This document shows, one piece after another, positions 3,563 to 11,930 of a stretch of 64,000 bases of DNA. How positions within the stretch are numbered: the stretch's first letter is position 1; each line of letters begins with the position of its first letter. The position numbers and the translations under genes are program-made. The stretch is from Collinsella tanakaei. Lineage in GTDB: Bacteria; Actinomycetota; Coriobacteriia; Coriobacteriales; Coriobacteriaceae. The DNA is taken from assembly GCF_021531055.1 (NCBI RefSeq), contig NZ_JADYTL010000003.1:186001-250000 (forward strand), read 5' to 3'. Below the pieces are notes generated by a model, which was given only the letters and a program-made list of their open reading frames with translations, was not told the DNA's origin and made no database searches.

Positions 3563-3943
3563 CTAGAACTTGCGCAGCGAGGACAGCGAGCGGAGCGACT
3601 GCATGATGCTGTCGCGGTCGATACCCGCCTGCGACTGCACCGTCGCCTCGACCGCGCCCTCGACGAAGGGACAGTCGGCCATGCATACATCCGGGTCGTG
3701 CAGATCGGACAGGACCATCTTGACGATTGCGGCGGAGGCGCCCATGTCCATGATGACGATGACGCCGTCCGGCCCGTTGACTGCGGAGATGGCGGCGCGG
3801 ACGCGCGTATAGCTCGTACCGAACGAGCCGTCGGGCAGCCCGCCGGCAAGCGCCACCGGGGCCTTGGGGGCGATGGCCTCGGTGTAGTCATGTAGCGCCT
3901 CGACGAGCGCCTTGGAATGCGAGACGAGCACGATCCCCACCAT
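3563..3943 (-). CDS. dhaM: DhaM-like PTS phosphocarrier (EIIA-Man fold), single domain
   Basis: The 126-residue protein begins MVGIVLVSHSKALVEALHD, the characteristic start of the EIIA-Man/DhaM domain, with the phospho-accepting histidine at residue 9. DhaM passes phosphate from HPr to ADP bound on DhaL, which then phosphorylates dihydroxyacetone held by DhaK. The segment DGVIVIMDMGAS also fits the family. It is the short, single-domain form without HPr or EI-like extensions. DhaK and DhaL are absent from this window, so the partners lie elsewhere or the protein serves another acceptor. The ATG at 3943 has AAAGGAG upstream; a longer in-frame start lacks a site. It lies upstream of pflB on the same strand with a 304-base gap. 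Confidence 0.85.
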   Translation of the reverse strand: MVGIVLVSHSKALVEALHDYTEAIAPKAPVALAGGLPDGSFGTSYTRVRAAISAVNGPDGVIVIMDMGASAAIVKMVLSDLHDPDVCMADCPFVEGAVEATVQSQAGIDRDSIMQSLRSLSSLRKF

Positions 3944-4050
3944 GGCGGCCACTCCTTTCCCCTGCAAGACCGTCATACGAGCACATGGTACCCGTTTCAC
4001 ACCCTTCGAAACATTCCCTCACGGAAAGGAAAGCCTGCCCCGCCCCCTGT

Positions 4051-4083
4051 ATCCCAATTTCCTCCCGGCCCCCTTTTGGGACA
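4051..4083. repeat. REP-like palindrome, TGTCCCAA...TTGGGACA family, copy 1
   Basis: An imperfect palindrome of about 33 bases ending in CCTTTTGGGACA. Close relatives are at 5893-5925 and, in the opposite sense, at 52522-52554. All three are intergenic. The remaining bases of the 3944-4258 gap show only a C-run (about 4188-4195) and no gene. Confidence 0.75.
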
Positions 4084-4258
4084 TGGTGGAATGCCGTTCA
4101 CCGATGGGTCGAACGGCGTCTTGACGAGAAACCAATGTGATATCACAATGCAATCAACGGGACGCACGGGTCCCGTCGGGGACTGCCCCCCCCCGAAGCA
4201 ATACGGGGCAGCGTCCGGGCTGTCACGCAAACGCGGACGTCGTTCGAAAGGAACTTCC

Positions 4259-5293
4259 ATGAGCGTGGAAAAGCAGATCAAGGCCAAATCCGGTTGGGGT
4301 ATGCTCGCCGTCGTCTGCGTGGCGTTTGTCGCCATCGTCGTCGTATTCATCCTGAGCATCATCGGTCTTGCCGACGCCGAAGACGCCGGCGTTCCCATCA
4401 ACCCGCTGCACGGCTGGGGTCTGGGCTTGAGCATCGCCGCGTTCTGCCTCGTTTGGATCCCCGTCTGCGGCTTCTTTACCCTGCAGCCCGGCCAGGCGCG
4501 CGTGTGCATCCTGTTCGGCGACTATAAGGGCACGGTGCGCGACGGCGGTTTCCGCTGGGCCAACCCGTTCTACAGCCGCTCGATGGGCACGAATGCCTCT
4601 GCCGAAGAGGCGACCGCCGAGGTCCTCTCCAAGTCGAGCCTATCGCTCGGCAAGCAGATCAGCGTCGCCGCCAAGGCATCCAGCAACCTGTCGACCAAGG
4701 TGAGCGTACGCGCCCGCACCCTGAACGGCGAGATCCTGAAGGTCAACGACAAGATGGGCAACCCCATCGAAATCGCGAACGTCGTGGTGTGGCACGTCGC
4801 CGACACCGCAAAGGCCCTATTTGACGTGGACAACTACGAGCAGTTCGTCTCCACCCAAGCCGAGACGGCGTTGCGCCACGTGGCGAGCATCTACGCCTAC
4901 GACCACCTGGAGGACAACTCCGACGACGCCGGCGCCATCACGCTGCGTTCCAACATCGAGGAGGTCTCCGAGGCGCTCAAGCGCGAGCTCACCCAGCGCC
5001 TGGCACCGGCCGGCGTAACCGTGGACGACGCCCGCCTCACGCATCTGGCCTACGCGCCCGAGATCGCCCAAGCGATGCTACGCCGCCAGCAGGCCGAAGC
5101 CGTCATCGCCGCACGCAAGAAGATCGTCGAGGGCGCGGTGTCGATGGTCGATATGGCGGTGAAGGAGCTCGCCGACGGCGGCACCATCGAGCTGGACGAG
5201 GAGCGCAAGGCGCAGATGGCCTCGAACCTCATGGTCGTGCTGTGCGGCGAATCCGAAGCGCATCCGGTTCTCAACACCAGCTCCCTCTACTAG
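4259..5293 (+). CDS. SPFH/Band 7 domain membrane protein
   Basis: A 344-residue protein with two N-terminal membrane segments (about residues 16-40 and 56-78) separated by a short loop. They are followed by a Band 7/SPFH domain beginning [20 protein letters not shown] and containing the typical [21 protein letters not shown] core. The C-terminal part is a helical, alanine/glutamate-rich stretch ([21 protein letters not shown]). SPFH proteins form large oligomeric rings or cages in the membrane and organise proteases or lipid domains; the exact partner is not evident. The start is chosen at ATG 4259, preceded by GAAAGGAA, rather than an upstream in-frame extension of low-complexity character. 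A ribbon-helix-helix protein follows on the same strand. Confidence 0.9.
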
Positions 5294-5581: not shown

Positions 5582-5677
5582 TGCCCCACGCCCCCACGAC
5601 CTCACGTGGGGCACGATGCGCGTGCGCGGTTTTGGAACACCTGCTTCCCGACTGCGCGCCTACCGCACGCCAAGACC

Positions 5678-5869
5678 GGGCAATTTGTTCAGATATGAAG
5701 GTTTGGACCTCCTAAAACGCCATCAAATCGGGCTGTTTTGGCAGTACCGTAACTTCTGCAGCCATGCTGTCGACCGCGCATCAGTCGATAGGCAAACTAA
5801 GATATTACGTTTTGTGAGATTCCATCATCCGCGGCAGATGCACAACCTTCATATCTGAACAAATTGCCC
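5678..5869. repeat. Inverted-repeat-bounded noncoding element (GGGCAATTTG family, copy 1)
   Basis: A 192-base element whose ends are a perfect 26-base inverted repeat beginning GGGCAATTTGTTCAGATATG. It contains no credible gene and is richer in A+T than its surroundings. A sister element of 197 bases at 46439-46635 has nearly the same ends but a mostly different interior; one internal box (GGCTGTTTTGGCA-like) sits about 26 bases inside the end in both. The rest of the 5582-6131 gap holds one more short palindrome (5893-5925) and no gene. Confidence 0.85.
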
Positions 5870-5892
5870 ACCTTCGCGACGCGCACCAGAAA

Positions 5893-5925
5893 TGTCCCAG
5901 TTTTCTCCTGGCCCTTTTTGGAATA
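5893..5925. repeat. REP-like palindrome, TGTCCCAA...TTGGGACA family, copy 2 (degenerate)
   Basis: Same family as 4051-4083: TGTCCCAGTTTTCTCCTGG followed by CCCTTTTTGGAATA. The right arm has decayed. It lies 23 bases after the inverted-repeat element. Confidence 0.6.
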
Positions 5926-6131
5926 CGCAGGACCTTTTGGAGCAGAGGCATCACAGATCGCACAGATATATGACCGCCCCCTTGTCAAAAGATGCCGTTC
6001 GCGACGGAGAACACGACTTAAGAGGTTCTTCAGACTAATCCGACGCCCCTGAGGTACATTCTTTATCGGCGCACCAATCGACCGTCGAGGCGCCCGCGGC
6101 GCCTTGGCAACGCTGAACAGGAGATGACACG

Positions 6132-6356
6132 ATGCGCATCGCAACGAAGAGAAAAGAGGACCCTCACCTCGCCGAGACGAACGCTCCCCAGGTGACAACC
6201 GCCAAACGCCCGAAACGCTCAAAGGACCAGCGACTCAACCTTAAGCGTTCATACGAAGCGTTTTTGGAAGCGACCAAGAAGGCGGGAGACTCCGCCAAGA
6301 GCGTCTGCATTCCCTCCGAGGTCTGGCCGATGCGCCCATACGCGGCATCCATCTAG
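6132..6356 (+). CDS. Small basic hypothetical protein (74 aa)
   Basis: I do not recognise this protein. It is 74 residues long, rich in lysine and arginine in its first two thirds (KRPKRSKDQRLNLKRSYEAFL), with no membrane segment. Support for expression comes from an AGGAGATG ribosome site seven bases before the ATG and from a strong hairpin with a T-run soon after the stop (6401-6440). An open frame on the opposite strand over the same bases lacks such signals. Function unknown. Confidence 0.5.
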   Translation: MRIATKRKEDPHLAETNAPQVTTAKRPKRSKDQRLNLKRSYEAFLEATKKAGDSAKSVCIPSEVWPMRPYAASI

Positions 6357-6400
6357 GCCCTCTTGCATCTGACGCCTTGCCGCACGCGCGCGAGGCACCG

Positions 6401-6440
6401 AGGCCCCGCAAGCCGGATCACACCGGTTCGCGGGGCCTTT
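6401..6440 (+). terminator. Rho-independent terminator after the 74-aa gene
   Basis: Hairpin with arms AGGCCCCGC and GCGGGGCCT, extended by an inner CCGG pair, followed by TTT. It could terminate in either direction but fits the gene ending at 6356. Confidence 0.75.
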
Positions 6441-6716
6441 CCATGGGCATGATCGACGTGTGCTGACAGGCGGTGATGAGGATGCCTAGCACGACGATAT
6501 GAAGAAATTGTGGTCGCATTGCCACAAAAGACGCCAAAAGGGGCACGCAAGGCCCCGAAATCCGCGCTCCACCACTATCCCGCAGTGCAGCATATGCTGC
6601 AAAAACAAGGTGTTTACCTGCGCATTATGTGCAACTCTTGAATCGTTTCCAAATGATTGCCAGCGACCCTTGAAACCGTCTGGGCGTCCGATTAGACTTG
6701 CCCTCGGCAAATCGGT

Positions 6717-6750
6717 GAACGGACGATTACCCACAGTAAACGGTCCGTTC
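6717..6750 (+). promoter_or_regulatory. Inverted repeat upstream of the 54-aa gene
   Basis: Perfect 8-base arms GAACGGAC and GTCCGTTC separated by 18 bases, ending 33 bases before the start codon at 6784. It could be an operator or a leader hairpin. The rest of the 6441-6716 stretch holds only a small GCAGCATATGCTGC palindrome and no gene. Confidence 0.4.
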
Positions 6751-6783
6751 AAGTCCATAGCATATCGAAGGAAAGGAAGAACT

Positions 6784-6948
6784 ATGGCCGCCATCAACCT
6801 GCTCCAGTCCACCGCCAAGGCTATTGCGAACATCTTCTCCAACGAGCTCGAGGCCGCCGTGCCCGGCATCAGCACTGGTGCCTATCTCGACCGCGCCGCT
6901 CACGTGACCCCGAAGGCATCCTCCGCCTACGGCCGTCTCGCCGCCTAG
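6784..6948 (+). CDS. Small hypothetical protein (54 aa)
   Basis: A 54-residue unrecognised protein (MAAINLLQSTAKAIANIF...). The first 20 residues could form an amphipathic helix; the rest is alanine-rich and polar with no cysteines. An AGGAAG ribosome site precedes the ATG, and an excellent terminator follows at 6989-7024, so a free-standing, well-expressed short transcript is likely. It faces a BceAB-type transporter operon, a class often used against peptide antibiotics, but the two are convergent and no link is shown. Function unknown. Confidence 0.6.
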   Translation: MAAINLLQSTAKAIANIFSNELEAAVPGISTGAYLDRAAHVTPKASSAYGRLAA

Positions 6949-10917: not shown

Positions 10918-10923
10918 TAGAAT
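10918..10923 (+). promoter_or_regulatory. Possible -10 box placed for a leaderless Nudix-Vsr transcript
   Basis: TAGAAT ends 8 bases before the ATG at 10932, and there is no good ribosome site. That spacing would put the transcript start at or next to the start codon. No convincing -35 box is seen. Confidence 0.3.
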
Positions 10924-10931
10924 GGTGTGCC

Positions 10932-11930
10932 ATGAAGACGATACATGTGGCAGCAGGCATCATACGCAGAGACGGCGATGGCGACGAAGTGCTCGCCGTT
11001 CAGCGCGGCTATGGCGATATGCAGGGACTTTGGGAGTTTCCGGGCGGCAAGGTGGAGCGCGGCGAATCGCCGGAGGACGCCTGCGTGCGCGAACTTGCCG
11101 AAGAGCTGCAGATCCGCGTGACGGACCTGCGGGATTTCTATACGGTCGAATACGATTACGAGGACTTCCATCTCTCGATGGAATGCTTTTTCTGCCGTAT
11201 CGACGCGAGTGAGGGCAGCGCGGAGCCGCAGCGCAGCGACCGACAGCTGGATATCCGTTGGGTCAGCCGCCGGTCGCTGGCAAGCCTGGAGTGGATGCCA
11301 GCGGACAAGGGCCTCGTCGAGGCGCTCGCCCTCGATGGCACCGAGGCGAACGGACGCGGGATCGATGATGCGGCAGCTGGCGATGGCGGTCCATCGCCAG
11401 CAGCGGACGCTGCCCCGAAGCCGCGGCCGCGTCGGAAATCCCGCACGACGAGGAAGAAACCCTCGCTACTCGACGGCATCGACACGAGCGACCTGACCGC
11501 CGCCGAGACCGAACTCGTGCGCCGCCGCGCCGCCATCCGCAAATCGATGCGCGGCAACAAGCGAGCCGACACCAAACCCGAGATGCTCGTACGGCAGCGC
11601 CTGCGCGAGGCGGGGCTCACCGGTTACCGCCTGCAATGGAAGAAGGCGCCCGGCCGTCCCGACATCGCGTTTCCGGGTCGGCGCATCGCGATCTTCGTAA
11701 ACGGGTGCTTTTGGCATCGTTGCCCGAACTGCCACCCCAGCATGCCCAAGCGAAACACCGAGTTTTGGGAGGCCAAGTTCCGCCGCAACATGGAGCGCGA
11801 CGCCCGCGCCCTCGCCGAGCTCGAAGAGCTGGGCTGGACCGCCATCACCATCTGGGAATGCGAGCTCAAGCGCGACCGCATCGACGAGACCATGGCGCGC
11901 GTCATCGACCAGATCCGCGCTGTCGGCTAG
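10932..11930 (+). CDS. Nudix hydrolase fused to Vsr-type mismatch endonuclease
   Basis: A 332-residue two-domain protein. Residues 1-130 form a MutT/NudG-like Nudix domain; the Nudix box spans 39-61 with E45, R53, E54, E57 and E58 in place, while the usual glycine near its end is Q60. Residues 140-200 are a proline-, lysine- and arginine-rich linker. Residues 206-332 form a very-short-patch-repair endonuclease: PGRPD with D244, NGCFWHRCPNC (257-267) with H262 and zinc-type cysteines, then TEFW and IWECEL. Vsr nicks beside T:G mismatches left by 5-methylcytosine deamination; MutT-type enzymes remove oxidised nucleotides. No cytosine methyltransferase is adjacent. Each domain call is strong; joint function is inference. 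Confidence 0.9.
   Translation: MKTIHVAAGIIRRDGDGDEVLAVQRGYGDMQGLWEFPGGKVERGESPEDACVRELAEELQIRVTDLRDFYTVEYDYEDFHLSMECFFCRIDASEGSAEPQRSDRQLDIRWVSRRSLASLEWMPADKGLVEALALDGTEANGRGIDDAAAGDGGPSPAADAAPKPRPRRKSRTTRKKPSLLDGIDTSDLTAAETELVRRRAAIRKSMRGNKRADTKPEMLVRQRLREAGLTGYRLQWKKAPGRPDIAFPGRRIAIFVNGCFWHRCPNCHPSMPKRNTEFWEAKFRRNMERDARALAELEELGWTAITIWECELKRDRIDETMARVIDQIRAVG

Follow-up and report, generated by a model that had tools for sequence, protein, structure and literature searches.

A Nudix hydrolase fused to a Vsr mismatch endonuclease is conserved in Collinsella and its relatives, with a possible role in limiting C:G-to-T:A mutation

Why should a nucleotide-pool hydrolase and a mismatch endonuclease be encoded on one chain, away from any cytosine methyltransferase? 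The question is raised by a gene at 10932-11930 on the forward strand of the window, a 64,000-nucleotide stretch of a Collinsella tanakaei contig. Our answer, reached from the domains, their distribution, their genomic setting and the selection acting on them, is given below with the readings that compete with it.

Two intact domains on one chain

The gene is a single uninterrupted open reading frame of 332 aa, from an ATG start to a TAG stop, and no stop or frameshift separates its two domains, so the single fused chain proposed in the first-pass annotation is real. An N-terminal Nudix domain of the MutT/NudG type (aa 1-133, 10932-11330), delimited using PF00293, alignment to MutT and NudG, and AlphaFold2 with Foldseek, is followed by a variable and partly disordered linker (approximately aa 134-190, 11331-11501; from pLDDT, length spread and dN/dS) and by a C-terminal, full-length Vsr mismatch endonuclease domain (approximately aa 195-326, 11514-11909; from TIGR00632, PF03852 and a residue check). 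Both domains were modeled confidently by AlphaFold2 (mean pLDDT 87), and linker residues 141-159 were disordered (pLDDT < 50). Since the linker spans approximately 0 to 108 residues among the fused relatives, the tether appears merely to keep the domains together. In the region immediately upstream (10918-10931) no ribosome-binding site is visible and a -10-like hexamer, TAGAAT, lies 8 nt 5' of the ATG (10918-10923, forward strand). The upstream comparison found TACAAT at approximately the same place in the nearest relative (L004) and GGAGG-type ribosome sites in most other relatives; the mRNA may be leaderless in the window's clade.

The Nudix half matches PF00293 over aa 5-130 (E = 1.1e-22, 80.9 bits against a curated cut-off of 21.1). 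Its Nudix box (aa 39-61, G39-x5-E45-x7-R53-E54-L-x-E57-E58) conforms to the superfamily signature GX5EX7REUXEEXGU, except that the second (penultimate) Gly is replaced by Gln. When the domain was aligned to the MutT and NudG sequences of E. coli MG1655, Asp125 fell at MutT N119 and NudG D118, the position that we take to read the base. Among 72 fused copies this residue is Asp in 69 and Asn in two, with one copy unscored. One version of the earlier proposal, in which the fusion deals with oxidised bases as MutT does, is thus less favored, since the recognition residue is the Asp of NudG rather than the Asn119 of MutT. The two copies with the MutT-like Asn (L048 in G058, 5605-6498; L140 in G034, 3592-4539) offer a natural comparison for Nudix substrate specificity.

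Sequence matches of the Nudix half in the PDB include several MutT/NudG structures, and its Foldseek neighbors include 3r03, 3gwy (a putative CTP pyrophosphohydrolase) and Mycobacterium smegmatis MutT2 with 5-methyl-dCTP. Whole-domain scores slightly favor MutT models (80 bits) over NudG (66 bits), and all fell below their NCBIfam cut-offs: 65.6 bits against 156 for the NudG model NF007834, and 79.9 against 97.9 and 80.2 against 148 for the two MutT models. The Nudix half is therefore only provisionally described as a probable pyrimidine-dNTP hydrolase, an assignment that rests mainly on one residue because neither the MutT nor the NudG cut-off is reached and the MutT scores are higher.

The second half is a recognizable Vsr. 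It matches TIGR00632 (vsr; NCBIfam) over aa 200-311 with 111.4 bits against a cut-off of 97.85, and PF03852 (Vsr; Pfam) over aa 203-263 with 65.8 bits against a cut-off of 27 (E = 3.2e-18); its nearest solved structure in the PDB is E. coli Vsr (E = 1e-22). NucS_C (PF01939) was absent from the Pfam matches of the fused protein. Alignment to the MG1655 protein indicated that equivalents of E. coli M14, E25, D51, C66, F67, W68, H69, C73, N93, D97 and C117 are retained, and the Vsr residues of the window protein include E217, D244, C259-F-W-H262, C264, C267, D290 and C310. The catalytic, zinc and wedge residues of Vsr and the catalytic residues of Nudix are all present, in line with what had first been read from the sequence. 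Across 39 distinct fused sequences the key Vsr positions are invariant or nearly so, apart from a single Tyr in place of F67 and a single Ser in place of C73. Zinc ligand 71 is Cys in the fused proteins (His in one) versus His in E. coli Vsr, while Val (or Ile) stands in place of E. coli Thr63 and Asn in place of His64. The latter changes do not represent degeneration, because all 74 standalone relatives carry Val and Asn there as well. The Vsr half would nick T:G mismatches, this mismatch specificity and any sequence specificity being putative, and action on deaminated bases (T:G), another option raised at the outset, is possible.

A core gene in a group without canonical mismatch repair

The fusion was found in 62 of the 67 genomes of the family that comprises Collinsella and its relatives, in five genera and in species such as C. 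aerofaciens, C. tanakaei and C. phocaeensis. Because of this conservation the fusion is neither chance nor artefact: its absence from relatives, which would have cast doubt on it, was not what we found, and an assembly error or frameshift is ruled out by the occurrence of the identical fusion in these genomes. The exceptions are four genomes of the sister genus g2, which have a standalone Vsr, and one genome (G031) with no Vsr. In both g2 genomes where a NudG-like Nudix was found, it lies on a different contig from Vsr. In most genomes of the family the fusion locus is syntenic, adjoining an ABC transporter ATPase/permease and often lying near htpG. A mobile or defence-island gene was considered and ruled out for the family on the basis of this fixed position by the ABC transporter. 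The best reading of these data is that the fusion is a core housekeeping gene of the family.

Elsewhere in Coriobacteriales a standalone Vsr is common, being present in approximately 218 of 299 genomes when a match at E <= 1e-44 is taken as Vsr. A genome from another family of the order (G286) carries the single actinomycetotal fusion seen outside the window's family, in a different genomic context, and reflects either transfer or misbinning; apart from it, no fusion was seen elsewhere in the sample of the phylum Actinomycetota.

The hosts lack the usual mismatch repair genes. Neither MutS (no match above cut-off) nor MutL was found in any of the 67 family genomes, and across the class MutS was detected in 5 of 398 genomes, all of them f6 MAGs with a completeness of at most 82%. 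For NucS, which makes double-strand cuts, there was no convincing candidate, since NucS_C gave just short partial matches among the family genomes and none in the window genome. All Coriobacteriia analyzed in an earlier survey were likewise without NucS and without MutS-MutL (Castaneda-Garcia et al. 2017, PMC5290159), though its authors noted that further mismatch-repair pathways could not be excluded (PMC5290159). Other routes for deaminated bases do exist, since UDG-superfamily glycosylases are encoded in all 67 family genomes. In a host lineage without MutS, MutL and NucS the fusion matters more, and it is a candidate for C-to-T error correction in a group that is without the usual mismatch repair.

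Mutational signatures were compared between genomes with and without Vsr. A k-mer test, in which CTAG and CCWGG served as traces of Vsr specificity and a Vsr-less relative was set against Vsr-bearing ones, gave no significant support. In a 400-kb sample of the Vsr-less G031 (L156-L175), log2 observed/expected values were -2.2 for GATC, -1.0 for GGCC and -0.8 for CCWGG, a pattern of avoidance that suggests restriction systems. Since GATC and GGCC are also avoided in G031, resembling restriction avoidance, the k-mer contrast is uninformative. GC3 was compared between G031 (L033, L156-L175) and G023 and between G090, G112, G235 and others and their congeners; of 11 pairs, two were excluded owing to masking or insufficient length of the contigs. 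Among the nine usable pairs, GC3 of the Vsr-lacking member was 14 to 29 points lower in four and did not differ in five, a contrast that was not significant (signed-rank p of approximately 0.3, computed by hand), with no pair strongly reversed.

Methyltransferases, partners and competing readings

The explanation that we favor, at a probability of roughly one half, is that the fusion acts as a bifunctional housekeeping enzyme against C:G-to-T:A mutation and that its Vsr has been freed from a Dcm-type methyltransferase. The N-terminal Nudix domain would hydrolyse pyrimidine deoxynucleotides that are unwanted, the likeliest substrates being dCTP analogues, for example 5-methyl-dCTP, in the manner of NudG and MutT2. 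The C-terminal Vsr domain would nick 5' of the T in T:G, after which repair synthesis would restore the C, and a flexible tether, rather than a rigid interface, would hold both domains together in a single chain, with any functional coupling between them being presumptive. The Coriobacteriales Vsr would then be an orphan, parted from its Dcm-type methyltransferase and widely retained without MutS, MutL or NucS. We count against this explanation the higher scores of the Nudix half with MutT models, the presence of a C5 methyltransferase in the window genome, the UDG-superfamily glycosylases of the family, the viability of G031 without Vsr and the lack of significant support from GC3 and k-mers.

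Linkage to a methyltransferase is the usual state of Vsr, as had been noted when the gene was first read, and the fusion departs from it. Among 59 Vsr loci on viral contigs, 50 had a C5 methyltransferase within 3 kb, whereas a METHYLTRANSFERASE partner beside the fusion was found in none of the flanks of the family loci examined, with the exception of G048. At the G048 locus (L136, 5171-8144), the fusion is followed directly, on the same strand, by a C5 methyltransferase (5787-6938) and a 211-aa ORF, which look like a restriction-modification system that was inserted next to the fusion. In the window genome the single C5 methyltransferase is encoded on a different contig from the fusion. On that contig (C15; L002, 255-1466 and 1480-2892) it faces a 403-aa ORF without a Pfam match, which may be its restriction enzyme.

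Neither is a C5 methyltransferase obligatory in the genome. The gene (PF00145) is present in 46 of the 67 family genomes and absent from 21, of which 18 carry the fusion. In eight close fused genomes without it, dN/dS was 0.031 for Nudix and 0.032 for Vsr; values in the window's clade were 0.13 for Nudix, 0.09 for Vsr and 0.67 for the linker. Strong purifying selection thus acts on both domains, also in genomes without a C5 methyltransferase gene, and the low dN/dS in these genomes implies that both are maintained without a resident methyltransferase gene. Past or transient methyltransferases are a possible cause of Vsr upkeep, while the selection data lean to a general Vsr rather than one restricted to sites derived from 5-methylcytosine.

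These data bear directly on a narrower reading, which we regard as possible but the less probable of the two, that the fusion serves 5-methylcytosine hygiene only. Vsr would mend the T:G mismatches left by deamination where passing restriction-modification C5 methyltransferases modify the DNA, and Nudix would clear 5-methyl-dCTP salvaged from degraded methylated DNA. The frequency of C5 methyltransferases in the family and the arrangement in G048 are consistent with it, as is the action of NudG and MutT2 on 5-methyl-dCTP reported in the literature. The equally strong selection on both domains in fused genomes that have no such gene, together with the methyltransferase-free flanks of the other family loci examined, argues against it. 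Further points in its favor come from Bacteroidales, where Vsr and a NudG-like Nudix occur as adjacent separate genes in either order. In one such pair (L123) the genes immediately upstream encode a C5 methyltransferase and an HpaII endonuclease, and another (L113) lies beside McrBC genes. A locus of Lentisphaerota (L103) combines Vsr with a C5 methyltransferase, HpaII and a more distantly related Nudix.

The Vsr and Nudix genes of L066, L080, L113, L123 and L129 overlap or are at most 10 bp apart, and those of L104 and L126 are close by; because a query with both domains was used to rank the loci, the frequency of such neighbors is inflated. Even so, chance would not be expected to place single genes at most 10 bp apart in several lineages and in both orders. 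In a Vsr tree built by a quick method from a short alignment (143 columns), the family fusions form one clade (SH-aLRT 99) whose sister, with weaker support (86), is the standalone Vsr of Eggerthellaceae. A true fusion in Prevotella (L078) falls far off among Bacteroidota, which indicates two independent origins of the fusion. Since g2 keeps the two genes unlinked, convergence with the Bacteroidales pairs seems a better account of the Collinsella fusion than inheritance from them. In the Vsr proteins of L066, L078 and L123 the zinc-loop region contains an insertion of some 20 residues or more, placed between the FWHGH motif and the cysteines that follow it. That Vsr and a NudG-like Nudix have been linked repeatedly and independently suggests an unrecognized partner of Vsr and fits the coordinated prevention and repair of mispairs that was initially put forward.

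This recurrence also weighs against the view that the two activities exist without coupling, the fusion being a chance event that was never lost and serves no joint function. The range of linker lengths, which indicates that a rigid interface is not kept, the separate Vsr and Nudix genes in g2 and the many Coriobacteriales that keep a standalone Vsr would all accord with such a history. We consider it unlikely given the persistence of the fusion in five genera, its independent counterpart in Prevotella and the immediate Vsr/Nudix neighbors in several Bacteroidales. Least probable is a phage-defence protein, in which Vsr would nick invading DNA and Nudix would act on phage nucleotides or signals: the Nudix half matches PADLOC PDC-S07 (E = 6e-38), the second half matches PADLOC Vsr, and HpaII and McrBC are neighbors in Bacteroidales, but PDC-S07 is a candidate label in PADLOC and no tested system, within the family the gene belongs to the core, keeps its synteny and is not mobile, and no Nudix-Vsr fusion was found in the phage, plasmid and viral collections except in a Collinsella record of 900 kb that had been submitted as a plasmid.

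Returning to the bifunctional housekeeping enzyme, a broader version may be offered as speculation: the orphan Coriobacteriales Vsr, fused to Nudix in Collinsella, might be the missing mismatch-repair nuclease of a class without MutS, MutL and NucS. It would provide a third route of mismatch correction that does not depend on cytosine methylation and is linked, within a single protein, to the cleaning of the nucleotide pool. We hold this extension to be rather improbable.

Comparison with known systems

Both parts of the protein belong to known families, and a Collinsella copy is labeled 'DNA mismatch endonuclease Vsr' in RefSeq. What is new is that they are joined, that the joined gene is core and that it occurs in hosts without canonical mismatch repair; our literature search found no paper describing a Nudix-Vsr fusion. 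A core, selected and methyltransferase-free mismatch nuclease joined to a nucleotide-pool hydrolase provides a concrete gene and enzyme in common human gut bacteria.

The C-terminal half shares with E. coli Vsr (TIGR00632/PF03852) its fold family and its catalytic, zinc and intercalating residues. It differs in being joined to Nudix, unlinked to a C5 methyltransferase and equipped with Cys as ligand 71, and MutL, the helper of E. coli Vsr, is absent from the family that bears the fusion. NucS/EndoMS of other Actinobacteria (PMC5290159) would occupy the same niche, that of a mismatch endonuclease without MutS/MutL, but belongs to a different protein family, and a full NucS match is absent from the family of the fusion. 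With NudG (Orf135) and mycobacterial MutT2, which are pyrimidine (d)NTP pyrophosphohydrolases, the fusion has in common the Nudix box, the recognition Asp and a place among Foldseek neighbors, whereas its Nudix half scores well short of the NudG model and is tethered to a nuclease. With the 8-oxo-dGTP diphosphatase MutT it shares the overall Nudix domain, at 80 bits with MutT models, but it lies below both MutT cut-offs and has Asp in place of Asn119. The closest parallel in composition is provided by the Bacteroidales neighbors, which are usually separate genes in a restriction context and of independent origin, yet pair a Vsr with a Nudix as neighbors and, in L078, as a true fusion.
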